Shown: one piece after another, positions 13,303 to 64,000 of the stretch | Layout of the letters: every line of letters begins with the position of its first letter | Numbering within the stretch: the stretch's first letter is position 1 | DNA from: Draconibacterium mangrovi | GTDB taxonomy: Bacteria; Bacteroidota; Bacteroidia; Bacteroidales; Prolixibacteraceae | Reading direction: 5' to 3' | Assembly: GCF_010586825.1 (NCBI RefSeq) | Contig: NZ_JAAAGB010000001.1 | Span: forward strand, 496,001-560,000 | DNA: 64,000 nt | The notes under the pieces: model-generated | What the model saw: only the letters and a program-made list of their open reading frames with translations | Told to the model about the DNA's origin: nothing | The model's database searches: none | Made by a program: the position numbers and the translations under genes

Positions 13303-13328
13303 AAGGCCCGACAGTTTTGCCGAGCCTT
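13303..13328 (-). terminator. Terminator of the TonB/DUF4249/LVIVD operon
   Basis: On the minus strand AAGGCTCG and CGGGCCTT form a stem (one mismatch) closing a 10-base loop, followed by TTTTTATTG. It sits 45 bases past the stop codon of the last gene of the operon. Confidence 0.7.
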
Positions 13329-13372: not shown

Positions 13373-14653
13373 TCAATCTTCGCGATAAACAGGAATGTGG
13401 CTTACCTGGGTAATATTTTGCAAATCAGAATAATCATACTGGTAAAATCCATCGTCGCCAATCATAAAGAGGTAACCGCCCAAAGGAATCACGTCGTAAG
13501 TGTTAATGTTGGCAAAATGCGAGATCATATGGTCGTCGATGGCAGTTTTATCCTCGGCATCGTAAACTTTAAGTCCGGCATCACCATCACATACAAAAAG
13601 CACATCGCCATCAATTCCCAGCCCGTACGGGCCATGCAGCGGATAGGATGCGATTAAATCGTTGTCCACATAATCATCGGCCAACTGTAGTACATCCAGT
13701 CGGTTAACCGTGCTTCCGCAAGTAGTTCCGCCACGCAGGGTAACGTATGCGTAACCATCGGCAATTACCACCGGATCGCAGCTGGTGACGTGCCAAAAAT
13801 CGCTTACATAAACGGGGTAGGTAGGCACTTCGATATTAAAAATGCGCATGCCCGATCGTGTTCCCAAGAACATATGGTTATCGTATATAAACATAGTTTC
13901 GACATTCCAACCAACGTTTTGCTGCCCGATTTCCGATGGACTTCCGGGAACTTTTACATCAAAAACATGAAGGTTGGCTTCATCAACTGCATACAAATAA
14001 TCGTCGTACAAACCAAAGCGCGCCATTGATCCCCCAACACCAAATGTACTTTGTCCTCCTGCGCTGCTCAATTTCGGAGCGGCATTAAACATCGCATCTT
14101 CGGCGTAGCCCCAACGATATATCGGGTAATAATGGTATTCCATTTCCTGGCGTACCCTTTTTATTTCCCAGCCGGTTACCACACCTTTTTCTTCATCCAC
14201 TTCGGCAAAACGGTAATCTTCGTCGGCAGGAGGCAAAGTATAAGGCAACACATCCTCAACACGGTCAACTTCTTCGGGGTTATTTATATCGCTGATATCG
14301 ATGGCCACCAGGTCGATGTAACTATCGGCATATAAAATATCCTCTTTTATCGCAATATCCACATTCCCGGGAATTTCGATAAACCCCACATTTTGCGGAT
14401 CGGCCGGATTTTGATTGTCGATAATATGCACGCCTTCAAATTCTTCAACAATAAACAGGTAACCATCTTTAAAATAGATTTTACCCGGGTTTACAAGATC
14501 GCGTGAGTCGACAGATTTAACGCCGGCGCGCAAATCTTCATACGACAGATAAACAGGTGAATTGGCCGTAAACTCTTCGGTGTATTCGTCCATACATGCT
14601 GAAAAAGCCAGCGCAATAAACAGTAGCAAGAATATATTTTTGATTGTTCTCAT
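13373..14653 (-). CDS. LVIVD-repeat lipoprotein (beta-propeller-like)
   Basis: A 426-residue lipoprotein with lipobox FSAC (Cys20). The body consists of repeated units such as GYLFIVEEFEGVHIIDN, DLVAIDISDINNPEE and LYAVDEANLHVFDVKVPGS, with the pattern of the LVIVD repeat family, which is predicted to form a beta-propeller. The function of these proteins is not established; ligand or protein binding at the outer membrane is the usual guess. It is the last gene of a six-gene minus-strand operon led by a TonB-dependent receptor, begins 13 bases after the preceding stop and is followed by a terminator. Confidence 0.82.
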   Translation of the reverse strand: MRTIKNIFLLLFIALAFSACMDEYTEEFTANSPVYLSYEDLRAGVKSVDSRDLVNPGKIYFKDGYLFIVEEFEGVHIIDNQNPADPQNVGFIEIPGNVDIAIKEDILYADSYIDLVAIDISDINNPEEVDRVEDVLPYTLPPADEDYRFAEVDEEKGVVTGWEIKRVRQEMEYHYYPIYRWGYAEDAMFNAAPKLSSAGGQSTFGVGGSMARFGLYDDYLYAVDEANLHVFDVKVPGSPSEIGQQNVGWNVETMFIYDNHMFLGTRSGMRIFNIEVPTYPVYVSDFWHVTSCDPVVIADGYAYVTLRGGTTCGSTVNRLDVLQLADDYVDNDLIASYPLHGPYGLGIDGDVLFVCDGDAGLKVYDAEDKTAIDDHMISHFANINTYDVIPLGGYLFMIGDDGFYQYDYSDLQNITQVSHIPVYRED

Positions 14654-14666
14654 TTTCTGTGGTTTT

Positions 14667-15437
14667 TTAGTTGAAAATAATACCGATTTTAACGGTTACG
14701 CGGTTGTAGTCGATGTCGAGCGAGTAGTCGTTTTCTCCATCATAATTCAGGCGGTGAAACTGGTAGCCCACGGCAAAGTTTATCCCTAAACCATTGGAAA
14801 GCATTTGCTGATATCCAAGTCCGGGATTAATAAGCACTCCCCCCTTGCAGTCGAAACCGTTTTGCCCCATATCTTGCGGCCAAGGTGCAAAACTGCTCCA
14901 GATGGGGTACACATCGTAATAAATTTCGTTGGAGTCTTCGATAGGAACCTGGTAACCGGCTTTTAAAAATACATAGGGGCTTGATAACTGTTTCTTAAAA
15001 CGGTATTCGAAATTGGCGAAAACGGGCATATACGACTCTTTCAGAAATTCAACCCCAAAGCCAAGACCGACCGATAAATTCTGATCTACCAGGTAGTTTG
15101 CCGATCCGGTAAGGGAAAATGGCGCCGACTGGCTGTTATCCGAGTTTCCGGCTAAAACACCCATTTCGGTTCTGAAAAACCATTTTACATCCGTTACCGT
15201 TTCTTCGTCGAACATTGTATTTACTTCGCGCTTTGAGGCGATGTGATCCACTTCGTCGGCATCGAAAATCCATACATTTCCGGCCGACTCTACTTTCAAT
15301 TGTTTTCCGTCGTTTGTATACGTGTATTTTCCTTTAAGAATGGAACCGTTTTTCAGGTAGACATGACCTTTTTCGGATTGCGCAAAAACGGAAAGCGACA
15401 ATACCGACATGCACAGCAGCACAAGTAGTTTCTTCAT
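14667..15437 (-). CDS. Secreted protein with predicted outer-membrane beta-barrel
   Basis: A 256-residue protein with a clear signal peptide (about residues 1-19, ending VFAQ). Residues 22-75 form a short separate module (HVYLKNGSILKGKYTY, then IFDADEVDHI). The rest alternates hydrophobic and aromatic strands (GSANYLVDQNLSVGLGFGV, VFANFEYRFKKQ, YVFLKAGYQVP, GINFAVGYQFHRL) and ends in KIGIIFN, as expected for a small barrel with a C-terminal aromatic residue. I do not recognise a named family. It lies between the 241-residue protein and the LVIVD lipoprotein in the operon. Confidence 0.6.
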   Translation of the reverse strand: MKKLLVLLCMSVLSLSVFAQSEKGHVYLKNGSILKGKYTYTNDGKQLKVESAGNVWIFDADEVDHIASKREVNTMFDEETVTDVKWFFRTEMGVLAGNSDNSQSAPFSLTGSANYLVDQNLSVGLGFGVEFLKESYMPVFANFEYRFKKQLSSPYVFLKAGYQVPIEDSNEIYYDVYPIWSSFAPWPQDMGQNGFDCKGGVLINPGLGYQQMLSNGLGINFAVGYQFHRLNYDGENDYSLDIDYNRVTVKIGIIFN

Positions 15438-15499
15438 AATGTTTTTTGTTTTTATGAAGATGTAATGTGATGTGTTTTGGTTGCGTTAAACAGAAATTT

Positions 15500-16225
15500 T
15501 TATTCTGTAAGATTGTTTTCGATCAACAGGCGGAGGGCGTTAACCATTGAGAATTCGTTGTTTATGTGTATTCCATTTTGGCGCAGAAGCTTTCGTATTT
15601 GCTTCTGATTTTCCGGAAACCGGGAGAGCAAAGCGGCTCGATTAAGTCGTATTTTCGTTAAACCATCGTGCTCGGTATATAAATAATAATCTTTGTGCAA
15701 CTGGTATTCAACGGCTCGTGTTATCCCGTTTCTATCCTTATAAGGACTAACCGATTGTTCAAAAATATACCAGTTAACCATTAAACTAACGGCTCCTTTA
15801 TACAGCTCTTCCAAATACATATTGGTTTGCTGATTGTTGTTTTTTGTGAGGCGAACAAACTTGCGCGTTTTGTTTCCGTCCTGAAACGAAAAGCTCTCTA
15901 CCAACTCTTTCTCAACCTGGTATAAAAAACGTCCGTTATCGTTATACGAAATCAGTTCATCGCTATAAGCCTGGTAGCGCAGTCGCAGGTTTTCGAACAC
16001 ATTGCCGTTTACAAATTTTACCGCGCCCGGAACCCAATCGTCGGGATACAAAAAATAGGAATTAACTTCAGCGTTTAGCGTAAGAACTTCGCCAAGCATT
16101 TTACCCTGAAGTTTATTGGATTCGCTATTCAGATTATAGGTGTCGATTCCCATGTCCTGAGCCTTCGCAATAAAAGCAAACAGAACTCCCAAAACCACTC
16201 CTGTATATTTTATTAAGCCGCTCAT
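15500..16225 (-). CDS. Uncharacterised secreted protein
   Basis: A 241-residue protein with a signal peptide (about residues 1-22, ending AKAQ). The middle carries AVKFVNGNVFENLRLRYQAY, a wording seen in Bacteroidota envelope proteins that read as a strand-rich domain, and the C-terminus is helical and basic (NQKQIRKLLRQNGIHINNE). No function can be assigned. Its start codon overlaps the stop of the upstream MG2/plug-like gene by four bases (ATGA), which argues for translational coupling and a shared role with it. Confidence 0.6.
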   Translation of the reverse strand: MSGLIKYTGVVLGVLFAFIAKAQDMGIDTYNLNSESNKLQGKMLGEVLTLNAEVNSYFLYPDDWVPGAVKFVNGNVFENLRLRYQAYSDELISYNDNGRFLYQVEKELVESFSFQDGNKTRKFVRLTKNNNQQTNMYLEELYKGAVSLMVNWYIFEQSVSPYKDRNGITRAVEYQLHKDYYLYTEHDGLTKIRLNRAALLSRFPENQKQIRKLLRQNGIHINNEFSMVNALRLLIENNLTE

Positions 16226-17871
16226 TGTACCGATATTATTTTTGACGTTCTGTACAGTTTTCCCGATTTTGATACCGCTTCAACTTTTATTTCCAGGTCG
16301 CCTTTTACATCCGAAAGCTGAAAACTAAATGGCCACTCTTTATCATTATCAACCACCTCGTTTAAAAATTGTCTACGGGTATCGGGTTGTGTTCTGCCCT
16401 CAGCATTCGGGCTGTAGTTCGCTTGTTTAGGGAATTCGATACACGGTACTTTTAGCTGAAAAATATTGGGTTGTTGCGCCAGCCAGCCATTCGATTTATC
16501 TTTTAACGACACGAAGAGCACGCCATTAAAACGCAGGTCGCCAAAAATACGCTCACTTTTTACCAAATCAATGAAGGTTATATCTGTAGATTTTAAATCC
16601 TGAAAGAATGAATTTTTAAACACCGGAATTCCGTTGATAAGGCGTAGCGGCTCTGTGTCGAAAAACCGATCCTGCCCGTAGTCTAACATTCTGAAAATAA
16701 CCTCATCGTTTCTGTCGCGGTACTGAAACCCTATAAGTAATTCGCGCGATATTTCCTTAAAACTGGGCAAATCGATAAACAGATCGGGAACTATATGATT
16801 ATCGGGCCTGCCGTAAAATGGCATTCCGTAAGGATTTGGCATCTCGAAATCATCCTTACTTGTGATTGAAACGCCTCTGAAAAGTTTATTAAAGAATGTA
16901 CCTTTTATGCTGTTCTCAATAATTTCTGCCTGCTTTGGATTAACAAAAGTGGAGTCGAATTTTAGTTGTTCTGCGGCTGACATAAAATTCGGTGTCAGCT
17001 CAATATCGAACAGTTTATCGCCAACAGCAAGTGGCTGAAGAATTAGATTGGCATTACCTCTTGCATCAGGCAGGAAGAAATGAAACAGCCCTGTTGAATC
17101 GGGATAATAATAATCAAAATATGTTTCGTTTCCGGTAACTGTTAACAATACCAGATTGTTGGCTGCATCACCTGTTTCCCGGTCGCTAAGACTACCACTT
17201 ATCAATACCCCGTCTTCTTCAGGGAATGGTGGAATACCTGCATTCCGGTCTGTCATCCCGAAGTTCATAAAACCTGAATTTTTATGAGAAAAAGGTTCAA
17301 TTATCCGCGCACTTGCCACCATGTATACAAACTCGTTATCTCCGGTATTAATACTCCCCTTTACCTCATCGCGCCGGCGGTAATTTTTATCCTCAAGATA
17401 AATATCGATCTGGTTATCGGCACTTTCCGGTGTAACAACGGCTGCTTTATCTTCCACAACCGGTAACCGTTCAATGGCTTCCTCAAAACGATTATAAACG
17501 TATACCGACCTGCCTGTACATTTCAGAACGCCATTGTTACGTTGCGCATTAAAAAAGGCATGCACAAAATACAATCCGGTCTGCAGGGAATCGGGTACAG
17601 CAATAAAACCTTCGGCTTGTGTATTGTTGTATTTTACGGCACGCGAAGCAATTAAATTTCCGGTTTGCGATTCCAGCTGCAAATGAACAATATTACCATA
17701 TCGTTGCAACTCTTTTGGTACATATGCTTTTAACCATAGCGTATCTCCCGAAATACAAAAATCGCGATCGGTAAAAACTACAAGTTCCCTGTTGGCGGTG
17801 GTTTGCGCCATGGATTTTAACCCGGCACATACCATTACAACAAGAAATAATATTTTGAATGCTCTGCTCAT
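16222..17871 (-). CDS. MG2-like / TonB plug-like envelope protein
   Basis: A 549-residue secreted protein. I chose the ATG at 17871, which is followed directly by a signal peptide (FKILFLVVMVCAGLKSMAQ), rather than the in-frame ATG 30 bases upstream that overlaps the preceding gene. Residues 25-120 resemble an alpha-2-macroglobulin MG2 domain (VFTDRDFCISGDTLWLKAYV). Residues about 400-470 (LRLINGIPVFKNSFFQDL, then ITFIDLVKSERIFG and FNGVLFVSLKD) have the spacing of a TonB-receptor plug, yet no barrel follows. MG2 plus solitary plug proteins are known in Bacteroidota without a settled role. It is third in the operon, 11 bases after the DUF4249 gene and coupled to the next gene by ATGA overlap. 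Confidence 0.65.
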   Translation of the reverse strand: MSRAFKILFLVVMVCAGLKSMAQTTANRELVVFTDRDFCISGDTLWLKAYVPKELQRYGNIVHLQLESQTGNLIASRAVKYNNTQAEGFIAVPDSLQTGLYFVHAFFNAQRNNGVLKCTGRSVYVYNRFEEAIERLPVVEDKAAVVTPESADNQIDIYLEDKNYRRRDEVKGSINTGDNEFVYMVASARIIEPFSHKNSGFMNFGMTDRNAGIPPFPEEDGVLISGSLSDRETGDAANNLVLLTVTGNETYFDYYYPDSTGLFHFFLPDARGNANLILQPLAVGDKLFDIELTPNFMSAAEQLKFDSTFVNPKQAEIIENSIKGTFFNKLFRGVSITSKDDFEMPNPYGMPFYGRPDNHIVPDLFIDLPSFKEISRELLIGFQYRDRNDEVIFRMLDYGQDRFFDTEPLRLINGIPVFKNSFFQDLKSTDITFIDLVKSERIFGDLRFNGVLFVSLKDKSNGWLAQQPNIFQLKVPCIEFPKQANYSPNAEGRTQPDTRRQFLNEVVDNDKEWPFSFQLSDVKGDLEIKVEAVSKSGKLYRTSKIISVQ

Positions 17872-17882
17872 TAGTTCTTTAT

Positions 17883-18944
17883 TTAGGGATGCTCCCACCA
17901 TTCGGGCATAATACTCACTTGTTCCCCCGATGAAGGGATGTGGTAACGCTCCTCAATCTCATGTAATGCAAATCCTGATGTTTCAGAAATATATCGCAAA
18001 AAATACCTTGTTTCGCTATTCACTGATATTTCAAAATTTCCGAGTATCTTCTGATCACTGTTGGTTGTACATCTCAAATTACTTCGTGCCTGCACATACA
18101 AGGGATCAAATATTTTTCCACCGGCTTCAAGCTGCTTGTTCAAATCATCGTAATAGTTGTAAGCACTTTTAGTTATTCCGTGTTGATACAGGATCACAAT
18201 CCAACCCGAGAAAATATGTTCCTCTTCGTATTTCACTCTATTTTTTAAAAAGTATAAGGGGTGCTTTTTAATTTCTTTAGAAGCCGAATATTCAGGTGGT
18301 GCAGCAATATTAAATGTCTTCTGCGGATAAGAGGATTTCCATCCATACACGGTTTCAGGCATCGTACTGCCAAAAGGCCCGGGAACCTCAATTACATAGT
18401 TATATTGCAAAACAAAGCGGGTTGTAAACCGGCAATAAGGATTTTCGTTATTGGGAGTTATATCAGCATACAAACGAACTCCTTCCAACCGATCCACATT
18501 GTCAACATCGTTATCACCGCTTTCCTGTCTTATTTCAACTTCCTCAAATCCATAAACACTGTCAATCGATGGTTTTTGGGGCACAACCTCAAAGGCCGAT
18601 TCATATTCTTCTCCCCGGTATTCAATTTTCAATTTATACTGTAAATTCGGGTTAAGAAGGCTATTTAACCTGTATCGGCCTCCGGAATAATGCGGCAGCT
18701 TCAGTTCACTACCGTTATTATCAATAAGCCGAACGACAGCATCGGTAACAGCAGGGCCGGTGCTTGCATTGTCGTAGTAAGCTACCGATTCGTATAAATC
18801 AATGTAATTAACCGATTGGTCGGCAGCTATTCGTGCATCGGCTACCAGAACATTGTCAACCACATCAATTTCAGGCCGGTAAACATCCTCACAGCCTGCC
18901 AGCAGAATGAATAGTATAAAACTATATGTTACAATGCGCTTCAT
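17883..18944 (-). CDS. DUF4249 domain-containing lipoprotein
   Basis: A 353-residue lipoprotein (lipobox LLAGC, Cys18) whose N-terminus (EIDVVDNVLVADARI, then VTDAVVRLIDNNG) matches the DUF4249 family. DUF4249 genes habitually follow TonB-dependent receptors in Bacteroidota, so the protein is probably a surface or periplasmic partner of the receptor; its ligand is unknown. Its ATG overlaps the receptor stop codon by four bases (ATGA), strong evidence of coupled translation. Confidence 0.82.
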   Translation of the reverse strand: MKRIVTYSFILFILLAGCEDVYRPEIDVVDNVLVADARIAADQSVNYIDLYESVAYYDNASTGPAVTDAVVRLIDNNGSELKLPHYSGGRYRLNSLLNPNLQYKLKIEYRGEEYESAFEVVPQKPSIDSVYGFEEVEIRQESGDNDVDNVDRLEGVRLYADITPNNENPYCRFTTRFVLQYNYVIEVPGPFGSTMPETVYGWKSSYPQKTFNIAAPPEYSASKEIKKHPLYFLKNRVKYEEEHIFSGWIVILYQHGITKSAYNYYDDLNKQLEAGGKIFDPLYVQARSNLRCTTNSDQKILGNFEISVNSETRYFLRYISETSGFALHEIEERYHIPSSGEQVSIMPEWWEHP

Positions 18945-21661
18945 AAAAACTTAAAATTATACGTTAGCGAAGGTACCGGAATACCGATTACCGACAGTTT
19001 AAACAGCGAGTAACGCGTGTAATTATTGCTTTCGCCCGGCACCGATTTTTTGTAATACACCGAATACGGATTATTGCGGCCGTAAACATTGTATACCGAC
19101 AAGGTCCAGCTGCCTTTCCACATCCGTTTTTTACGCAGGTTCTGATCGAAAGTGATCGACAAATCCAATCGATGATACGATGGCATGCGGTATTTATTTC
19201 TATCGGAATAATAAACCAGGTCTTCGCCGGCAAATCTGTATTTAATTTCGGGCAAAGTGGTTGGCCTTCCTGAAACCATAACAAAGTTACCGGAGAAACG
19301 CCACCTGCGACTAATATTATAAGTTGCCGTAAGCGAAAAATCGTGTGGTTTATCGTAAATCGACGGATAATAATCGCCGTTCCACAAATTTTCTTCGCCA
19401 AAATCGCTGGTATTTTTCCGCATTGTTCGTGAATACACGTAGCTGGCATAACCGGTTAAGCGGCCGGTATTTTTGCGTGCACTCAGCTCAATTCCATATG
19501 AATAACCTTTTGTAGGCACAAGTGCCGTTTCAACATGGTCGTTCATAATCAGCTGAGCACCATTTTTATACTCAATCAGATTTTGCAGGTATTTGTAGTA
19601 CACTTCGGCTGAAAGGTCAACACGCGATAACAAGGAGTTATTTTCAACACCAACTGCCACCTGATCGGAAATGAGTGGTTTTAAATGGTAATCGGCTGCC
19701 TTCCATGTTTCGGCCGGCGAGATTACCGCATTATTACTAAGCTGAAAAATATTTTGTCGTGTGCGCTGATAACTGAACTTCAGCGAGGTATTCATATCAA
19801 GATCGTAGTTCATTGCCAGCCTTGGTTCAATTCCTCCGTAAGTTGCAGAAGCCTCGTTTTTGCCAAACTGCAGCGAGTCGACCACCGTTCCGGGTTCTTT
19901 AGGCTGACCCTCATCGTACAAATAAACAACCGGAGTGCCAATATTACTAAAATGATTATAACGCAAACCGGCCACAATCGAAAAGTTTGGCAAAACCTGA
20001 AATTCGTCGCTTATATACACCGACCAGTCCAGTGTTTTTTCCATTGCTAATTTACGACCAACAATTACCGTTGTATCCTGTTTCGGAATAATTTCACCGG
20101 GACTGATTTCGTTGTAAACAGCTTTAAAACCGGCTTCGGAATTATGCAGCTCATCGGGATGCCATTTAAAGTTATACGCAACAGAACTGTACTGCAACTG
20201 ATTATCGAGATAATAAGCTTCAAAAGGTTTATTGTCGGCCAGGTCGGTAAGTCGGTAATCATAACGGCTATAGGCTGCATCCAGCTCGCCGTAAAATTTT
20301 TCGCCAAAACGGTTGTTCAATTTTAGGTTGCCCAGCAGGTTTCCGTATTCGGTTATCGATTGCGAACTGGTACTAAACTCATCGAAACTGGTATAAGCCA
20401 TTACACTTAATTTGTTGTGTTGATTGAACTTATAAGTAAGTTTCCCCGACACATCATAAAAATGGGTAACTCCCTCATTCAGGTCGAGAATAGGAATTTC
20501 CTGTAACAACCAGTCGGTATACGAACTACGGCCGCCAACAGCAATGGTAAACTTTTTATTTTTTGTTAGTGGCCCGTCAAGCGCGAGGCGCGAGTTTATA
20601 ATTCCAATTCCTCCATAAAAGCGTATGGTTTCGTCATTCCCTTCTTTAAAGTCGACCTCCATTACCGACGCCACCCGCTCGCCGTAACGCGCCGGCATGC
20701 CGCCTTTAAACAGTCGTACATTCTCCACAACATCGGGATTGATAAGCGACATAAAGCCAAAAAGGTGCGACGAATTAAATACCGGGCTGCCATTTACCAG
20801 AATTAGGTTTTGATCGGTGTTTCCTCCACGCACGTTAAACCCCGATGACAATTCGCTTACCGTTTGTACCCCAGCCAAAATGGTAAGCCCTTTTAACACA
20901 TCAACTTCGCCCATTAATGCCGGCAATTGCTGAATCTGTTTACCACTCATTTGCACCATACTCATTTGCGCGCGTGGCACATCACCATCCGATCCGAGCA
21001 CAGTTACCTCATCAATATTATGCGACTCTTCAAACAAGCGAAAATCTGCTGTGCCATCTTCTATCAGGCGAATATCTATTAAAGAGCCTTCGAAACCGAT
21101 GTAGGTGATCGTTAATTTAAAATCACCGGTAGGCAAATCCAGTTCAAAACTTCCGTTTGCATCAGATGTTGTGCCTTTTTGCAGCTTATTGCAATAAACC
21201 ACGGCACCAACCAGTGGAGTCCCGTCTTTTCCATCAAGGATACGCCCTTTTAACTTTGCTGTTTTGTACCGTCCTAAATTCATTGGATCGCCAACCACCA
21301 ACGTTTGAGAGTAATCATCAAACTTCGACCGGGTATCAGCCGACCTTCGAAAAATGACAATTCCATCATTCTGAAAGAAATCGTAGCTCAGTTCAGAATC
21401 ATAAAATACATTATTTAGCGCCTGCAATAAAGGTGTATTTTCAAACTGATTGGAAATGGTAGTTTTATCAACCCACGATTTTTTGTAGTAAACCCGTAAG
21501 TTATAATTGTTTTCCAGGTCATTCAAAAATTGCTCAAGTGGTTGATTTTGGTACGAACCAGTTATTTTTATCTCTTCAATTTGCTGGCCATACAAAAAAG
21601 TATTATTCCCCAACAAAAGAGCTAAAAACAGGAGCACATAACTAATTAAAGACTTTTTCAA
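18941..21661 (-). CDS. TonB-dependent receptor with STN-like and carboxypeptidase-regulatory-like domains
   Basis: A 906-residue outer-membrane receptor. After the signal peptide (about 1-25) comes an STN/secretin-like domain (about 30-110, EQFLNDLENNYNLRVYYK), a CarboxypepD_reg-like domain (about 135-215, LKGRILDGKDGTPLVGAVVY), a plug (about 225-340, FNVRGGNTDQNLILVNGSP) and a 22-strand type barrel ending in SLTYNFKFL. The only start consistent with the signal peptide is TTG at 21661: the frame upstream is stopped nine codons earlier and contains no ATG, and an AAGG lies at a suitable distance. It should import a ligand, possibly a peptide or siderophore, with its DUF4249 partner. No sigma/anti-sigma pair is adjacent despite the STN domain. 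Confidence 0.9.
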   Translation of the reverse strand: MKKSLISYVLLFLALLLGNNTFLYGQQIEEIKITGSYQNQPLEQFLNDLENNYNLRVYYKKSWVDKTTISNQFENTPLLQALNNVFYDSELSYDFFQNDGIVIFRRSADTRSKFDDYSQTLVVGDPMNLGRYKTAKLKGRILDGKDGTPLVGAVVYCNKLQKGTTSDANGSFELDLPTGDFKLTITYIGFEGSLIDIRLIEDGTADFRLFEESHNIDEVTVLGSDGDVPRAQMSMVQMSGKQIQQLPALMGEVDVLKGLTILAGVQTVSELSSGFNVRGGNTDQNLILVNGSPVFNSSHLFGFMSLINPDVVENVRLFKGGMPARYGERVASVMEVDFKEGNDETIRFYGGIGIINSRLALDGPLTKNKKFTIAVGGRSSYTDWLLQEIPILDLNEGVTHFYDVSGKLTYKFNQHNKLSVMAYTSFDEFSTSSQSITEYGNLLGNLKLNNRFGEKFYGELDAAYSRYDYRLTDLADNKPFEAYYLDNQLQYSSVAYNFKWHPDELHNSEAGFKAVYNEISPGEIIPKQDTTVIVGRKLAMEKTLDWSVYISDEFQVLPNFSIVAGLRYNHFSNIGTPVVYLYDEGQPKEPGTVVDSLQFGKNEASATYGGIEPRLAMNYDLDMNTSLKFSYQRTRQNIFQLSNNAVISPAETWKAADYHLKPLISDQVAVGVENNSLLSRVDLSAEVYYKYLQNLIEYKNGAQLIMNDHVETALVPTKGYSYGIELSARKNTGRLTGYASYVYSRTMRKNTSDFGEENLWNGDYYPSIYDKPHDFSLTATYNISRRWRFSGNFVMVSGRPTTLPEIKYRFAGEDLVYYSDRNKYRMPSYHRLDLSITFDQNLRKKRMWKGSWTLSVYNVYGRNNPYSVYYKKSVPGESNNYTRYSLFKLSVIGIPVPSLTYNFKFL

Positions 21662-21884
21662 TTTTTTTGAACCTTGGTTTAGAATTTATTTGACTTTGAT
21701 TTCCTCTGTAGGTTTAAGCCTCTAAGAATTTTATACAATTTGTTTAATAAGTTTAATAAACAAAAACAATCATCCATTGCAACAAGGCTTTTTTTAGCAT
21801 CTTTATTTGAAATGTCTGATATTTTTTCAATCTTCGAAACCAATAAACCAATTACCCTTCTTCTTATTTAACAATAGTATAAAA

Positions 21885-24431
21885 ATGAAGCGATCTGTTA
21901 CAACAATTTTTATTTTATTTCTTATTATTTTTTCACAAGCGCAGGAAAAACTATCCTACTTTCTACCTGACGACGTTACTTATAATAGTGAAATACCCAC
22001 ACCTGAAGAGTTTTTCGGGCAAAAAATGGGAGAATGGCACCTCTCCCACGACCAGGTTTTGTACTATGCACAAACAATTGCCAAAAGTACCAACCGGGCA
22101 ATTCTGTATGAATATGCCCGATCGTATGAAAACAGACCGCTGGTTCACCTGGTTTTTACTTCGCCCGAAAACCAGCATAATCTTAACGAACTAAAAGAGC
22201 TACATTATAATTTCTCGGAGCCGGGACAAGATATTGCCAAAAGCGATGTGCCGCTGGTGGTTAGTTTAACTTATGGTGTTCATGGAAATGAATCGAGTGC
22301 CACAAATGCCTCGGTGCTAACCGCCTACTACCTGGCTGCCGCCGAAGGGGCAAAAATTGATAAACTCCTGGAAAAGAACATCATTATTGTTGATCCGTGT
22401 TTAAATCCCGATGGATTTACACGTCACAGCATGTGGGCCAACATGCACCAAAGTGCAACACCCAACGGCGAAAATAATTCCCGCCAGTTTCAGGAAGTGT
22501 GGCCGGCCGGACGAACCAATCATTACTGGTTCGACCTGAACCGCGATTATTTGTTGTTGGTACATCCCGAGAGTAGAGGTCGCGTGCAGAAATTTCACGA
22601 ATGGAAACCAAACATTGTTACCGACCACCACGAAATGGGCGCCAACTCCACTTTCTTCTTTCAGCCGGGTGTACCAAGCCGAAACAATCCGCTTACTCCC
22701 GAAAAGAACTACGAGCTTACCCATAAAATAGGCGATTACCACGCAAAGTTTTTGGATAAAATCGGTTCAACATATTTTACTGAAGAACAATTTGACGACT
22801 ATTATTTCGGCAAAGGATCATCATATCCAGATGTGAACGGAAGCATTGGTATTCTTTTCGAGCAAGCTGGTTTTAGAGGCCGATACAGAAATACATCGAA
22901 TGGACAAAAGACACTGGCATTTGGTATACGCAACCAGTTTGTAACGAGCCTGTCGACATTGGAAGCCGCCATGAATTTACACGACGAATTGCTTGATATG
23001 CAAAAAGAATTTTACAGCTCGGCACTCGACCTTGGGGCGAAAAGCAAAACCAAAGCCTACATTTTTGGCAGCAGCACCGACCGCGTTAAAACGCAACATT
23101 TTGTTGATTTGCTAAACCGCCATCAAATTGAAGTTTACGAGAACGAAAGTAAGCAGGAAGTCGATGGACAAACTTTTGAAAGCGGCACTTCTTATGTTGT
23201 TCCGCTTAATCAAAAGCAATACCGCCTGATCCATTCAATTTTTGAAGAAGTGCATGAGTTTACCGACACTACTTTTTACGATGTTTCCACCTGGACTTTC
23301 CCGCACGCCTACGATCTGCACGCTGCAAAACTCGGTAGTCTTAACGGCGTTTCACTGTCCGACGAGCCGGTTGAAGCTCAAAAAATTGCAGGAAAACTTA
23401 TTGAAGCAGATAATCCTGTTGGTTACCTGTTCCGCTGGGACGAATATTCAACAGCCGAAGCACTTTATAAAATTCAGAATGCCGGGTTGCGAACCTATGC
23501 AGCCACAAAAGAATTCACGATTGCGGGCAATGATAATGAAGAAGCATTTTCGTACGGAAGTATTTTTATTCCGGTTCAGGACCAAATTATGTCGGGCAAC
23601 CAGGCAAAGGCGTTTCTGGAAAATGTTGCACAAAATACCGGAGTTGATATCTACGCCGTATCGAGCGGATTAACACCCACAGGCATTGATTTGGGAAGTA
23701 ACAGCTTTGAGCCGCTTACCAAACCAAAAATTTTAACTTTTGCCGGAGGTAGTGCCAGCAGCCGCGATGTTGGCGAGATCTGGCATCTTTTCGATCAACG
23801 TTATCATATTCCTTTAACACTTGCCGAAAGCAGTTCGCTAAGCAAAATAAAACTTAGTAGCTACACCACTATTATCCTGAGTGGAAATTTCACGGAATGG
23901 GGAACAACAGAGATAAACAAGCTAAAAAGCTGGGTTAGCGAAGGCGGAACTTTAATCGCCTATAAAGAAGCAACCACCTGGGCTGCCAAAAACCAAATCG
24001 GCAACACCACTTTTAAAAAGCCCGTTTCGCCCGATTCAACACGTTATTTAAGCTATGCCGAACGCAGTAAAGAAGAAAGTCTGAATTACATTAGCGGCGC
24101 TATTTTCGAAACCGACATCGACGTAACACACCCATTATGTTTTGGCTATTCCGATAAACAACTGGCTCTTTTTAAATCGAGTACAACAGTTGCCAATTCA
24201 CTCGAAAAGAAATATGTCGAGCCGGTTAAATTCAGCCAATCGCCTTACCTCAGCGGATGGGTTTCGGATGACAATATAAACCGGCTAAAAAATGCGCCTG
24301 TTGTTACTGTTCAAAATATTGGCAGAGGTAAGCTGATAAGCTACCACGACAATATGACTTTCAGAGGAACATGGCTGGGCACCAATAAACTATTTTCGAA
24401 TTCAGTATTTTTCGGAGACATAATCCGCTAA
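21885..24431 (+). CDS. Secreted M14 family zinc carboxypeptidase
   Basis: An 848-residue secreted peptidase with signal peptide (residues 1-20, ending SQAQ). The M14 zinc ligands are visible: HGNE (His133, Glu136) and a later His in TDHHEMG (His248 or His249); NPDGFTRH and NRDY are the usual substrate-site neighbours. The domain ends about residue 370. The C-terminal part (about 630-848, TFAGGSASSRDVGEIWHLFDQ and WVSEGGTLIAY) looks like a class I glutamine amidotransferase-type alpha/beta fold, a common extension in Bacteroidota M14 proteins. ATG 21885 was chosen because the longer frame starts only at a TTG and would bury the signal peptide. It is divergent from the TonB operon; release of C-terminal amino acids or processing of cell-wall peptides are both possible. 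Confidence 0.87.
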   Translation: MKRSVTTIFILFLIIFSQAQEKLSYFLPDDVTYNSEIPTPEEFFGQKMGEWHLSHDQVLYYAQTIAKSTNRAILYEYARSYENRPLVHLVFTSPENQHNLNELKELHYNFSEPGQDIAKSDVPLVVSLTYGVHGNESSATNASVLTAYYLAAAEGAKIDKLLEKNIIIVDPCLNPDGFTRHSMWANMHQSATPNGENNSRQFQEVWPAGRTNHYWFDLNRDYLLLVHPESRGRVQKFHEWKPNIVTDHHEMGANSTFFFQPGVPSRNNPLTPEKNYELTHKIGDYHAKFLDKIGSTYFTEEQFDDYYFGKGSSYPDVNGSIGILFEQAGFRGRYRNTSNGQKTLAFGIRNQFVTSLSTLEAAMNLHDELLDMQKEFYSSALDLGAKSKTKAYIFGSSTDRVKTQHFVDLLNRHQIEVYENESKQEVDGQTFESGTSYVVPLNQKQYRLIHSIFEEVHEFTDTTFYDVSTWTFPHAYDLHAAKLGSLNGVSLSDEPVEAQKIAGKLIEADNPVGYLFRWDEYSTAEALYKIQNAGLRTYAATKEFTIAGNDNEEAFSYGSIFIPVQDQIMSGNQAKAFLENVAQNTGVDIYAVSSGLTPTGIDLGSNSFEPLTKPKILTFAGGSASSRDVGEIWHLFDQRYHIPLTLAESSSLSKIKLSSYTTIILSGNFTEWGTTEINKLKSWVSEGGTLIAYKEATTWAAKNQIGNTTFKKPVSPDSTRYLSYAERSKEESLNYISGAIFETDIDVTHPLCFGYSDKQLALFKSSTTVANSLEKKYVEPVKFSQSPYLSGWVSDDNINRLKNAPVVTVQNIGRGKLISYHDNMTFRGTWLGTNKLFSNSVFFGDIIR

Positions 24432-59134: not shown

Positions 59135-59743
59135 ATGGACAGACCAACAGCCATACTAAACCTAAAAGACCTTAATCTCACCGAATTAAACAATTTGATG
59201 AGTTTGTATTCTGATTCATTGTATCTTTTTGTATATGGAATTACAAAACACAAAGAGACCGCAGAGGAATTGGTAAGTGATGTATTCGTAAAACTATGGA
59301 ACAATCGAGATGAATATTCGTCAATTAGAAATATTCGCTCGTATTTGTTTGTTTTAGCCCGGAATGAAAGCATTTCTTTTCTTCGAAAGAAGAAACAACA
59401 AACAATAAATATTGATGAATTTGGCGACTATTGGGTAACGCCATTGGACACCGAGGATTCTGAGACTTTCCCTCCAGAAGTAATCGAAAAAATTAATGAG
59501 GCAATTGAGTTGCTGCCTTCAAAATGTAAAATGGCATTTAGTTTAGCCAAAATTAACGGGCTGAAATATAAGGAGGTAGCTGAGATAATGAAAATATCTC
59601 CGTGGACAGTAAAAAATCATGTGGCTTATGCTCTCGAAAAGATTTGCAAACATGTTGGAATTATCAACAATAATCAAACCGTTTCGAGCTCAGATATATG
59701 TCTTTTTATGATTTTATTAAACCAAAAGGAAGTAACTCGTTAA
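59135..59743 (+). CDS. ECF RNA polymerase sigma factor
   Basis: A 202-residue extracytoplasmic-function sigma-70 factor. Region 2 spans about residues 20-90 (YLFVYGITKHKETAEELVSD, then VKLWNNRDEY and the RSYLFVLARNESISFLRKKK DNA-binding end); region 4 spans about 130-180 (KINGLKYKEVAEIMKISPWTVKNHVAYAL). It is followed by a FecR-type anti-sigma gene and a SusC receptor with an STN domain, so it should be released when the receptor binds its substrate and then activate this locus. Its own promoter is a housekeeping one. Confidence 0.94.
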   Translation: MDRPTAILNLKDLNLTELNNLMSLYSDSLYLFVYGITKHKETAEELVSDVFVKLWNNRDEYSSIRNIRSYLFVLARNESISFLRKKKQQTINIDEFGDYWVTPLDTEDSETFPPEVIEKINEAIELLPSKCKMAFSLAKINGLKYKEVAEIMKISPWTVKNHVAYALEKICKHVGIINNNQTVSSSDICLFMILLNQKEVTR

Positions 59744-59764
59744 TGTTTTACCCCATAAAACTAA

Positions 59765-59814
59765 CTTCCGCCAAAAAAAACATTTTTTTTTATAGCCCAT
59801 TTTTTTGCTTCCGC
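59765..59814. repeat. CTTCCGC direct repeats around A8 and T9 tracts
   Basis: CTTCCGC occurs at 59765-59771 and 59808-59814. Between them lie an A8 run, a C-A step, a T9 run and a T7 run. It sits 22 bases after the sigma stop and 85 bases before the fecR-type start, so it may be a control site or a weak terminator between the two genes. Confidence 0.35.
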
Positions 59815-59898
59815 GTCATATGAGTATATGATGCTGCACAACCATCTAATCAAAAAAAAGCAAGAAGCTAAGAATTTATTAATTGGGCTTAACTTAAA

Positions 59899-60864
59899 AT
59901 GACGGAGAACAATCAAAATCTACATAAAATATCTGAATACTTTTCAGGAGAACATGAACAGGAAACGGTGAAAAGTGAACTTGACCAGCATCCGGAATCT
60001 TCTGAATTATTTAATTGGGTTAGTGCATTCTGGACAAAACTTCGTCCTCACTCACCGGAAAGTTCTGAAACAATCAGACAATTAACATTGCAAAAAATTA
60101 ATCAGAAGAAGAAATCGAAAAATCTTTTGTTCTGGAACTTCGCAAAGTATGCTGCAATATTTATACTTCTGATATCCACTGGCACTGCTACCTATTATTT
60201 TATCAACAAGGAAACAAATCCAAATATAATCACTGTCTACAGTGGTATTGGAGAAATTAAAAGTGTGAGTTTGCCTGATGGATCTGTGGCCTGGTTAAAT
60301 GCTCAGTCGCAAATGAGTTATCCGGAAAAGTTTACGAACAAACGAGCAGTTAAAATTACCGGCGAAGTATATTTTGAGGTTGAGCACGATGAAAAAAATA
60401 CATTTACTGTTCATTCAAAATATGTAAACATTGAAGTTTACGGAACCAAATTTATGGTGAGTACATACGGTGATAATCCGAATGTTTCTACCTGCCTGTT
60501 TGAAGGGAGCATTGCAATGGAAGTTCCGACAATTAAGAAAACTTTGGAGTTAAGACCTGGCAATTTGGTTACTCTGGAAAAATCAACAATGAATATTACA
60601 AAAGAAGAGAATGGTGCAGAAGGGCTAAACAAGTGGATTTCAGGAGGCATATCATTTTATAATGAGCCGCTTAGCGAAATTGCCAAAAAGCTACAGCGCA
60701 AATTTGGAACAGAGATTGCAATCGAGGGAAGCAAAATTCAATGCATGAAACTAACTGCTGATTTCGAAGAAGAGAATCTGCATCAGATTCTTACTTATAT
60801 GTGCAGTTACGCAGGATTAAAATTCGAAAAAACGAAAAAAGGATATTTAATAAAACTAAACTAA
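59899..60864 (+). CDS. FecR family anti-sigma factor
   Basis: A 321-residue single-pass inner-membrane protein. The cytoplasmic N-terminus (about residues 1-80) should bind the sigma factor; the membrane helix is about 82-101 (AKYAAIFILLISTGTATYYF). The periplasmic FecR domain (about 105-215) contains VSLPDGSVAWLNAQSQMSYPE and GEVYFEVEHD; a DUF4974-type C-terminal domain (about 250-320, FYNEPLSEIAKKLQRKFG) is the STN-contacting part in such systems. It is between the sigma and susC-type genes, as is normal for trans-envelope signalling. Confidence 0.94.
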   Translation: MTENNQNLHKISEYFSGEHEQETVKSELDQHPESSELFNWVSAFWTKLRPHSPESSETIRQLTLQKINQKKKSKNLLFWNFAKYAAIFILLISTGTATYYFINKETNPNIITVYSGIGEIKSVSLPDGSVAWLNAQSQMSYPEKFTNKRAVKITGEVYFEVEHDEKNTFTVHSKYVNIEVYGTKFMVSTYGDNPNVSTCLFEGSIAMEVPTIKKTLELRPGNLVTLEKSTMNITKEENGAEGLNKWISGGISFYNEPLSEIAKKLQRKFGTEIAIEGSKIQCMKLTADFEEENLHQILTYMCSYAGLKFEKTKKGYLIKLN

Positions 60865-60888
60865 TTGCCTATGTAAAACGCCAAAAAA

Positions 60889-60922
60889 GGGCAACGATAA
60901 ATGCGCCACATTTTCGATGCCC
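60889..60922 (+). other. Imperfect hairpin between the fecR-type and susC-type genes
   Basis: GGGCA pairs with TGCCC, extended inside by CGA/TCG with one mismatch. There is no T tract, so it may be an attenuator or an mRNA stability element separating anti-sigma from receptor levels rather than a terminator. Confidence 0.3.
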
Positions 60923-60969
60923 TGATTCCTAATTAACGATAAAGGTATAATCGCTAATCAAACAAATTT

Positions 60970-63900
60970 ATGAAAAAAATTAACGTATGGAAGGTGTACC
61001 ATTGGAGTATACCTTGCAAATTGCTACTAACAATGAAACTAACGTTTGCATTTACATTTTTCTTAACATTTGCACTAAATGCAACTACAATTTATTCGCA
61101 GGGAATAAAGATTGATACAGATGTTGAGCAGACGACACTTAAAGACCTGTTTGAACAAATTAAAGCTCAGTCTGAATACCGCTTTTTATACAACAATGAC
61201 CTGGTTAACGACGAGCAAAAGGTTGACATTAATTTTGAAGAGGGAACAATAGAAGAAGTTCTGACAAGTTCACTGAAAAAGTTAAATCTGTCGTATCGCA
61301 TATTCGACAAGCAAATAATGGTTTATCCTACACCACTACAGCAGAAAGAGCTACAACAAAAACACGTTGTAAAGGGAATTGTAACTGACGCTTCAGGAGC
61401 TCCATTGCCTGGAGTAACGGTTGTAGTTGTGGGAAGCAGCAGAGGGGTTATCACCGATGTTGATGGAAATTTTGAAATAGATATTGATCCTGCGGGTCAG
61501 CTTCTTTTCTCGTTTATTGGAATGTCCGATCAACAAATCGAAGTAAGTAACAGAACGGTTATCAACGTAATTCTGCAAGAAAAATCAGAGGAACTTGAAG
61601 ATGTTACCGTAGTTGCTTTCGCGAAACAAAAGAAAGAAAGCGTTTTAGCATCTATCACAACAATTGATGCCGGAGACTTAAAAGTTCCTTCAAGCAACCT
61701 TACTACTGCCTTTGCCGGTCGTGTTTCGGGATTGATTTCCTATCAACGAAGCGGGGAACCTGGCCAGGACGACGCAAGCTTCTTTGTGCGTGGTGTTACT
61801 TCTTTTACTTATGCACGCGGGCCACTTATTTTGATTGACGGAGTTGAAATGTCCTCATCAGATTTAGCGAGAATTCAGCCGGATGACATCGCCAGTTTCT
61901 CGATTATGAAAGATGCAGCTGCAACCGCACTTTATGGCGCCCGAGGTGCAAATGGTGTAATCATGGTTACAACAAAGGAAGGAAAGGAAGGAAAAGCACA
62001 GATATCTTTCCGTTATGAAACATCCTTTTCCATGCCTACCCAAGAGGTAGATTTAGCAGATCCGCTTACCTATATGAGATTAAACAATGAAGCGGTTTTA
62101 ACACGAAATCCACTGTCTCCGATTCCATATTCAATGGAAAAAATAGAAAGTACCGAAAGAGGTGCTAACCAATTGGTTTATCCTGCAACTGACTGGTACA
62201 ATACATTATTTAAGAATTACACTATTAACCACCGGGCCAACTTCAATGTAAGTGGTGGTGGAAAAATTGCCAGATATTACATTGCTGCGACGTACAACCA
62301 GGATTACGGTATTCTCAAAGTAGATAAGCAAAATAATTTCAATAACAATATCGACCTGAAACGTTACCTGCTTCGTTCGAATGTGAATATAAATATCACG
62401 CCAACAACAGAAGCTGTTGTCAGGTTGCATGGAACGTTCGACGACTACACCGGACCTATTGACGGAGGATCTGACCTGTACCAAAAAGTAATGCGAACCG
62501 ATCCGGTACTGTTTCCGGCTTATTACCCACATACCGAAGAAACATCGCATATAAAACACATCCTTTTTGGTAACTACGATCAAGGCCAGTACATAAATCC
62601 ATACGCTGATATGGTAAAAGGATATAAAGACTATACAAAATCTCTTTTCCTTGCTCAGTTTGAGGTAAAACAGAAGCTCGACTTCATAACACAAGGGTTA
62701 AATATTCGAGGTTTATTCAGTACAAACAGGTATTCATTCTTTGATGTATCTCGTTATTACAACCCGTTCTATTATAACATCACAGGTTACGACAAATACG
62801 AGGATACTTATCAACTTTACAGTTTAAATCCCGAAAGCGGAACTGATTACCTCACCTATAACGAAGGAGATAAAAACATTACAACTACTACTTATTCTGA
62901 AGTGGCGATCAATTACGACCGTACGTTTAACGATAAACACTCCATAAGTGGTTTGTTGGTTTCAACCATGAGAAACTATCTTGAAGCAAATGCCGGTTCT
63001 TTGGCCTTGTCTCTTCCTGCAAGAAACATGGGAGTCTCTGGTCGTTTTACTTATTCTTATGACAGTAGATACTTTACTGAATTCAACTTTGGTTACAACG
63101 GTTCAGAAAGATTTGCAAAGAAAGAGCGTTTTGGTTTTTTCCCATCGATGGGTCTGGCATGGATCGCATCGAACGAGAAATTTTGGACAGACGGCCTCAA
63201 ACGAATCGTCTCGAACTTTAAATTAAAAGGTACGTACGGTTTGGTGGGAAATGACGCCATTGGCGATAAAGATGACCGTTTCTTCTACCTATCAGAAGTT
63301 AACATGAATTCTGGAAACCGGAATTTTGTTTTCGGAGAAGACCTTCAGTACTATTCGAATGGCGTAGAAATCAGCAGATACTCTAACGACCTGATTACCT
63401 GGGAAACGGCAAGAAAACTTAATCTGGGTGCAGAAATCGGACTGTTCGAAAAAATGGATATCATAGTTGATGTATACCGGGAACACCGAAGCAATATATT
63501 AATGAACCGTTCCAGTATTCCAACAACAATGGGACTAAATGCAACTCCTCAGGCAAACATTGGAGAGGCAATTGGCCGTGGAATAGACTTCTCTCTCGAC
63601 TATAACCAAGCATTTGATAATGGATGGTGGCTAACCGGAAGAGTAAACTTTACTTATGCAAAAGCAGAATATAAAGTTTACGAAGAAGTAGATAATACCT
63701 TAACTCCATGGTTGAGCCATATCGGACGCCCTGTAACACAACAGTGGGGATATGTTGCCGAACGTTTGTTTGTTGATGAATATGAAGTAGAAAACAGCCC
63801 TACGCAAACTTTTGGCGAATACATGGGGGGAGATATTAAATACCGAGATATAAATAACGACGGTATTATTTCAAGTTTAGACCGTGTTCCAATCGGATAT

Positions 63901-64000
63901 CCAACGGAGCCGGAAATTATCTATGGATTTGGATTTTCTTCCGGCTACAAAGGCTTTGATTTCTCCTGCTTCTTCCAGGGCCTTGCACACGAATCATTTT
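60970..64000 (+). CDS. SusC/RagA-type TonB-dependent transducer with STN domain, C-terminus beyond window
   Basis: The frame is open from ATG 60970 to the right edge (1010 codons). Signal sequence about residues 1-43 (ending YSQ), STN domain about 45-118 (LKDLFEQIKAQSEYRFLY), CarboxypepD_reg-like domain about 133-205 (VKGIVTDASGAPLPGVTVV), TonB plug about 215-330 (FFVRGVTSF, LILIDGVEM, MKDAAATALYGARGANGVIMV), then barrel strands. This is the SusC/RagA family, importing oligosaccharides or peptides with a SusD partner that should follow downstream. The STN domain plus the adjoining sigma and FecR genes identify it as a signal-transducing receptor that controls its own locus. It is separate from the TTG-started TonB receptor near 20 kb. 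Confidence 0.95.
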   Translation, partial: MKKINVWKVYHWSIPCKLLLTMKLTFAFTFFLTFALNATTIYSQGIKIDTDVEQTTLKDLFEQIKAQSEYRFLYNNDLVNDEQKVDINFEEGTIEEVLTSSLKKLNLSYRIFDKQIMVYPTPLQQKELQQKHVVKGIVTDASGAPLPGVTVVVVGSSRGVITDVDGNFEIDIDPAGQLLFSFIGMSDQQIEVSNRTVINVILQEKSEELEDVTVVAFAKQKKESVLASITTIDAGDLKVPSSNLTTAFAGRVSGLISYQRSGEPGQDDASFFVRGVTSFTYARGPLILIDGVEMSSSDLARIQPDDIASFSIMKDAAATALYGARGANGVIMVTTKEGKEGKAQISFRYETSFSMPTQEVDLADPLTYMRLNNEAVLTRNPLSPIPYSMEKIESTERGANQLVYPATDWYNTLFKNYTINHRANFNVSGGGKIARYYIAATYNQDYGILKVDKQNNFNNNIDLKRYLLRSNVNINITPTTEAVVRLHGTFDDYTGPIDGGSDLYQKVMRTDPVLFPAYYPHTEETSHIKHILFGNYDQGQYINPYADMVKGYKDYTKSLFLAQFEVKQKLDFITQGLNIRGLFSTNRYSFFDVSRYYNPFYYNITGYDKYEDTYQLYSLNPESGTDYLTYNEGDKNITTTTYSEVAINYDRTFNDKHSISGLLVSTMRNYLEANAGSLALSLPARNMGVSGRFTYSYDSRYFTEFNFGYNGSERFAKKERFGFFPSMGLAWIASNEKFWTDGLKRIVSNFKLKGTYGLVGNDAIGDKDDRFFYLSEVNMNSGNRNFVFGEDLQYYSNGVEISRYSNDLITWETARKLNLGAEIGLFEKMDIIVDVYREHRSNILMNRSSIPTTMGLNATPQANIGEAIGRGIDFSLDYNQAFDNGWWLTGRVNFTYAKAEYKVYEEVDNTLTPWLSHIGRPVTQQWGYVAERLFVDEYEVENSPTQTFGEYMGGDIKYRDINNDGIISSLDRVPIGYPTEPEIIYGFGFSSGYKGFDFSCFFQGLAHESF

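Follow-up and report, generated by a model that had tools for sequence, protein, structure and literature searches.

On the minus strand of a 64,000-nt stretch of the Draconibacterium mangrovi genome (the window; it lies in contig 11, in our working numbering, of a 5.9 Mb assembly), six genes are packed end to end at positions 13373..21661. We designate them A to F in transcription order. Gene order in related genomes and a promoter motif of the extracytoplasmic function (ECF) sigma factor type divide these genes into two modules, A-B-C-D and E-F. We consider it probable that the first encodes a TonB-dependent outer-membrane importer and the second a separate pair of proteins under stress control; the division into two modules is held with more confidence than this explanation as a whole.

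All six open reading frames (ORFs) are present in the ORF list of the window, arranged as a preliminary description made from the sequence alone had stated. A (18941..21661; minus strand, as for all features given here; TTG start) encodes a TonB-dependent receptor with an STN/FecR_C-like N-terminus followed by CarboxypepD_reg, plug and barrel. B (17883..18944) encodes a DUF4249 lipoprotein, in which the lipobox LAGC is followed by EDVY and which we propose as a surface lid of A. The product of C (16222..17871) is a secreted protein of 549 amino acids with MG2-like, CarboxypepD_reg-like and plug-like parts, and that of D (15500..16225) is a secreted protein of 241 amino acids, mostly beta with C-terminal helices, of no known family. 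E (14667..15437) encodes, as judged by alignment, a predicted small outer-membrane beta-barrel protein, and F (13373..14653) an LVIVD beta-propeller lipoprotein that reads CMDEYTEE from the lipobox cysteine on. A and B, like C and D, overlap by four bases of the ATGA type, while D and E are spaced by 62 bases and E and F by 13. The reported spacing of 11 bases between B and C holds if C begins at the inner ATG at 17871, which gives the 549 amino acids seen in most close homologs; the longest ORF extends to 17901. A signal-peptide-like core at the start of all six proteins and a lipobox in B and F, both found with a simple in-house rule, agree with the claim that all six are secreted or outer-membrane proteins. 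A terminator had been said to close the set, and a hairpin of 11 pairs is indeed seen 3′ of F (13303..13328). As the window holds 14 terminator-like sites against 16.2 expected from shuffles, this single match is not significant alone.

Gene order of the two modules in relatives

A first scan of genome contigs with a profile of C yielded 16 loci (the primary set; loci carry our working labels, such as L008). The order A-B-C was found in all 16, with an ortholog of A in each, and D follows C in 15; in L009 the contig ends there. With the same profile, matches were obtained in 69 of 198 genomes of the order (E-value <=0.001) and in 28 of 296 genomes of a phylum sample (<=1e-10). Further loci, 35 from the order sample and 20 from the phylum sample, were mostly top-scoring ones, so that the sample leans to closer relatives. 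With L053 removed as identical to L016, the combined set covers 70 loci with 72 distinct C genes. B lies directly upstream of C in 67 of the 72, the order A-B-C is kept in 65, and 60 have D as a neighbor, 28 times after C and 32 times before A, in no case on both sides. Several of the exceptions to the A-B-C-D order are cut by contig ends. Iteration of the D profile drew on these cassette loci. A seed-only profile gave 47 matches at E-values <1e-3; the genes before A scored from 1e-15 (L151) to 8e-4 (L063). Since the A-B-C-D order recurs in distant genomes, up to other orders of the class, the grouping is more than chance.

Outside the known cassettes, relatives of D were found at 18 places, 16 of them alone; the other two (L299, L300) are at contig ends, next to a receptor of the cassette type. 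One stand-alone paralog lies in the D. mangrovi genome itself (L290:6231-6932, contig 20), about 28 kb from an ECF sigma gene. At another locus, L058:10748-16690, five consecutive DUF4249 genes stand between one receptor and C.

Among the 15 primary relatives with D, E-F directly follows D in 10. In L007, L012, L017 and L018 the available DNA beyond D shows no E-F; in L013 D and E are separated by a gene for an M14 carboxypeptidase. A search for E in 295 genomes of the order gave 51 positive genomes at an E-value <=1e-15, from which 30 E loci were fetched. F is adjacent in 28 of these and D in three (the window, L016 and L014), all known before; no D was seen within the ~1.5 kb flank examined in the other 27. 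By our own reading of the scan lists, C is present in 16 of 32 E-positive genomes as compared with 69 of 198 overall. The two modules are thus coupled at most loosely, and the conserved gene order that was to be looked for across all six families is found for A-D, not for the link to E-F. In one relative (L008:11056-15359) the E-F pair is duplicated in tandem.

Putative promoter motif and sigma/anti-sigma genes

The motif CGCAACC-N17-ATCT lies in the D-E gap (15458..15485), 20 bases before E, and this is its single match in the window against 0.02 expected. We examined the first E copy of twelve loci (the window, L003-L006, L008, L010, L011 and L013-L016), and CGCAACC-N17-[AG]TCT precedes it in 11; the twelfth, L014, has N16. 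The distance to E is 20-23 bases in 11 of the 12 and 106 in L010. No such motif precedes the second E copy of L008. In 25 newly fetched E loci with upstream DNA, CGCAACC-N16-18-ATC[AT] occurs within 70 bases before E in seven (L200, L201, L204, L205, L206, L210 and L219) and is absent in 18 by our own count.

The motif also precedes an ECF sigma gene in all eight loci with upstream DNA (L008, L011-L016, and L089 in the D. mangrovi genome). Several of these sigma loci carry it on the opposite strand too, before serpin- or NigD-type genes. Serpin-type genes divergent from the sigma gene were seen by eye in L008, L011, L012, L013, L015 and L016; the one tested, in L013, matched PF00079 with 393 bits. 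A scan of the D. mangrovi genome with N16-18 spacing gave 14 matches as compared with five for a reversed control. Eight of the 14 are N17 sites, located before E, the ECF sigma gene, two NigD-like genes (contigs 20 and 22), three lipoprotein-like genes (contigs 3, 8 and 23) and one gene for a VWA protein, and none of the other six precedes an ORF longer than 85 amino acids. Both NigD-like genes pass PF17415 (91.8 in L100 and 25.3 in L089, cut-off 22.6). The predicted ECF regulon of these eight sites comprises L089:7792-10885 on contig 20, L091, L092, L100, L101 and L102 along with E-F. In 60 genomes of the family the N17 motif gave 292 matches and the control 122, which means that many single matches are due to chance.

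The sigma gene, which matched the general sigma-70 region 2/4 and ECF Pfam models, is followed by a gene for an anti-sigma-like protein of 460-476 amino acids, in which a hydrophobic segment begins at about residue 42-46 (read by eye in the L089 copy) and the C-terminus is barrel-like. The Dma-Das and EcfO-Reo systems likewise consist of a sigma factor next to an anti-sigma factor that spans both membranes; NigD genes are under EcfO and Das1, and the common theme is outer-membrane stress or vesicles (sections of PMC13088901, PMC13114119 and PMC9308784 on these systems). The barrel passes the cut-off in L008 only (PF13568, 30.8 against 27) and is below it in L013, L140 and L089 (PF13505, 21.4 against 28.7), and the N-terminal domain matched no Pfam anti-sigma model. 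As the motif before E matches the motif before this Dma/Reo-like ECF sigma gene, E-F would most likely belong, with the NigD-like lipoproteins, to a regulon for outer-membrane stress.

The preliminary description noted that the six genes lack a sigma/FecR pair. This holds for the locus itself, but half of the primary loci (8/16) have a gene for an ECF sigma factor, a Dma/Reo-like anti-sigma factor or both in the ~6 kb upstream of A. The pair is directly upstream on the same strand, 118-422 bases off, in L008, L012, L013 and L015, and one or both genes are a few kb away with the M14 gene between in L010, L011, L014 and L016. In L140 and L141, which share one genus code, the pair is downstream of C. 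In the D. mangrovi genome the single anti-sigma match is 44% identical and lies on contig 20 (L089:9458-10885) with an adjacent ECF sigma gene and a NigD-like gene. A Dma-like match near the cassette was otherwise found only in L053 (the same contig as L016) among the 35 order-sample loci and only in L140 and L141 among the 20 phylum-sample loci; weaker, sigma-only matches were seen in L056, L068, L134 and L149. Between C and the sigma gene, L140 (7374-8690) and L141 encode a protein of 438-469 amino acids, which in L140 matched Lcl_C with 26.8 bits, below the cut-off.

Domain content and the receptor N-terminus

A passes the Pfam models for the TonB-dependent receptor (PF00593, 80.7, cut-off 27) and its plug (PF07715, 39.2, cut-off 23.9), and it also passes CarbopepD_reg_2 (PF13715, 59.0 bits, cut-off 32.2). 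FecR_C (22.2 vs 24.4) and STN (18.9 vs 28.4) are below their cut-offs. Assignment of A to SusC/RagA was rejected, the score for TIGR04056 being 77.1 against a cut-off of 368.25. B passes DUF4249 (PF14054, 81.4 bits, gathering score 28.5), and it adjoins the TonB transporter gene and has a predicted lipid anchor, which is the gene context expected of a DUF4249 lid. By the same simple rule, a lipobox is found across the cassette loci in 50 of 76 B proteins, 1 of 72 C proteins and 3 of 60 D proteins, so that B is predicted to be a lipoprotein and C and D to be soluble.

The preliminary description read C as an MG2 domain plus a barrel-less plug. MG2 (PF01835) scores 15.3 in the C of the window against a gathering score of 32.8, matches 39 of 61 C homologs at an E-value <=0.1 (best 2.9e-8) and exceeds the cut-off in a long relative in L080 (36.7). 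For the plug there is no Pfam match in the C of the window. PF07715 matched one of the 61 homologs (E-value 0.046), which is weak by sequence, and two of nine further proteins, L073 at 0.00098 and L081 at 0.032, both below the cut-off; the plug-like stretch of L073 corresponds to residues 388-450 of C. Alignment of C with A by hhalign gave a probability of 5.7%. Thus, the reading of C as carrying a barrel-less plug is plausible but weak. D has no Pfam match, and its predicted structure (predicted local distance difference test score 81.9) has no match in PDB. F passes LVIVD (PF08309, 21.7 vs 20.2), as had been claimed, and E is just under the threshold for OMP_b-brl (PF13505, 28.2 vs 28.7). 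The D. mangrovi genome also encodes an 807-amino acid C-type paralog with MG2 and CarboxypepD_reg (L022:7707-10130) that has no receptor, DUF4249 or other cassette neighbors.

We compared receptors with and without a neighboring C. The test set consisted of 40 DUF4249 places taken roughly by rank from the order list (some were passed over, and most places already known for C were excluded), and of the second DUF4249 locus of D. mangrovi, giving 41 loci; rows are DUF4249 genes, with tandem copies counted apart. In 33 of them a receptor lies immediately upstream of a DUF4249 gene; three had no receptor there and five had no DUF4249 gene by profile. An STN-type N-terminus was found in 4/4 test rows with C and 4/29 without; in the cassette loci the counts were 74/76 with C and 1/1 without. 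In a tree of 63 receptors, built with the STN part removed, the cassette receptors thinned and a quick support method, the cassette receptors form a single clade of 34 (support 100), with one C-positive row outside, the second receptor of L068. On this tree C changes three times and STN five times, and an independent-pairs test is not significant. Given the single clade and this test, the link between STN and C does not reflect repeated independent events; both features mark a single old lineage of transporters.

Proposed roles, known systems and neighboring genes

We propose that the A-B-C-D module is a TonB-dependent outer-membrane importer with A as the gated barrel. B would serve as an extracellular lid, held by its lipid anchor, that captures the ligand, and C and D would be soluble periplasmic proteins at the inner side of A, where they probably dock on its STN/plug region and may hold or release the plug or take over the ligand. 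A more specific version, in which C is a second, barrel-less plug (MG2-CarboxypepD-plug) that mimics the receptor's periplasmic half and docks with D on the STN/plug region, we put forward as doubtful. If true, it would describe a TonB importer with a dedicated periplasmic receiver or gate, a four-component transporter type found through much of the class Bacteroidia. E-F would pair a small barrel in the outer membrane with a propeller lipoprotein and be made under outer-membrane stress from its own ECF-type promoter in the D-E gap.

Several observations weigh against this proposal. The plug signal in C is weak, the link between STN and C comes from one clade with a non-significant pairs test, and D belongs to a wider family that mostly stands alone outside the cassettes (16/18). 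A candidate motif of A scored little better than its control. Concerning the second module, the motif precedes only 7 of the 25 new E genes and is missing from the second E copy of L008, the 62-base D-E spacing leaves read-through into E-F possible, and the coupling of the modules is loose. In Bacteroides thetaiotaomicron, moreover, the Dma2 system does not raise nigD1 (part of PMC13088901).

That all six genes are one operon whose products act together as one surface machine is unlikely in our view. Tight packing on one strand, the terminator-like end and the position of E-F directly after D in 10 of 15 primary relatives with D would fit such a unit; set against this are the ECF-type motif of E itself, the loci in which E-F was not found after D (L007, L012, L017 and L018) or is separated from it (L013), and the 27 of 30 E loci with no D near E. 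Of the dedicated import or adhesion machine suggested earlier, an import-type envelope machine is retained for the first four genes and the single six-gene unit is not; no sign of adhesion turned up, and no test was aimed at it. We give a similarly small chance to A-D being a sensor, in which ligand at A/B would act through STN and C/D on the Dma/Reo-like anti-sigma factor, freeing the sigma factor to turn on E-F and the NigD-like genes. An STN-type N-terminus without a neighboring FecR gene is consistent with sensing, as is the position of the sigma and Dma-like genes, immediately upstream of A on the same strand (L008, L012, L013, L015) or downstream of C (L140, L141). In D. mangrovi, however, the pair is on a different contig, Dma-like matches beyond the primary loci are confined to L053 in the order sample and L140 and L141 in the phylum sample, and the common neighborhood may reflect descent only.

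A role of the complex in outward transport or in outer-membrane assembly (export, or quality control of lipoproteins or barrels) instead of nutrient import is rather improbable. The neighboring regulon is envelope-stress-like, and MG domains, to which the fold of C has a match, occur in proteins that bind proteins; both points would suit such a role. On the other hand, plug and barrel of the receptor are of the ordinary type, and published work takes DUF4249 genes to act together with TonB transporters (DUF4249 passages of PMC11003636). The importer with a separate stress-controlled pair is our preferred explanation.

The arrangement of DUF4249 beside a TonB receptor had been called known, and the same passages bear this out: BT2172-BT2173 of B. 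thetaiotaomicron is such a pair, transporter-DUF4249 is described as a conserved operon, and the transporter subfamily almost always adjoins DUF4249 across dozens of genera. The present genes share with these pairs a DUF4249 gene directly beside its TonB transporter and differ from them in the two extra conserved genes, C and D, and in the STN-type receptor; pairs without C mostly lack this N-terminus (25/29 test rows). No partner like C or D is named in those passages, and "MG2 domain" with TonB was not found among the matches listed from the open literature. DUF4249 genes occur in 170 of the 198 sampled genomes of the order, yet a single paper in the open literature searched names the family. 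We read A-D as a lidded TonB transporter of a known kind with two further recurring partners; these two genes and the receptor type that marks them offer a concrete complex to test.

Price and others reportedly described lid families for TonB transporters in 2023. With SusC-SusD and other lidded transporters A-B shares, as a working analogy, a barrel with a lipid-anchored partner gene; it differs in that B is DUF4249 and not SusD, A is far under the SusC/RagA cut-off and, by Pfam, there is no glycan enzyme among the six genes. C differs from alpha-2-macroglobulin and complement proteins with MG domains in its length, 549 amino acids against 1100-1600 for the bacterial ones listed, and in its plug-like segment at about 388-450. 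Like Dma/Das and EcfO-Reo, the sigma locus described here has an ECF sigma gene beside one for a protein that combines a hydrophobic segment with a barrel-like C-terminus, and a shared motif before NigD-like genes; a difference is that the motif is found here before E-F too and, in relatives, before serpin-type genes. An EcfO motif is said to be known (part of PMC7366714); the likeness to EcfO-Reo described here is one of layout and NigD genes. The motif thus gives a predicted regulon for a Dma/Reo-type sigma factor outside gut Bacteroides, and it would place an uncharacterised barrel-propeller pair in that regulon.

Two neighboring features of the window were also noted. The locus at 59-64 kb, with which the six genes had been contrasted as to a sigma/FecR pair, was judged by eye only: the ORFs in 59135-64000 resemble an ECF sigma factor (at 59135, 202 amino acids), a FecR-type protein (at 59899, 321 amino acids) and the start of a receptor (at 60970, cut by the window end). 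Next to A, and divergent from it, lies the M14 carboxypeptidase gene (21807-24431), which stays beside the cassette in several relatives.

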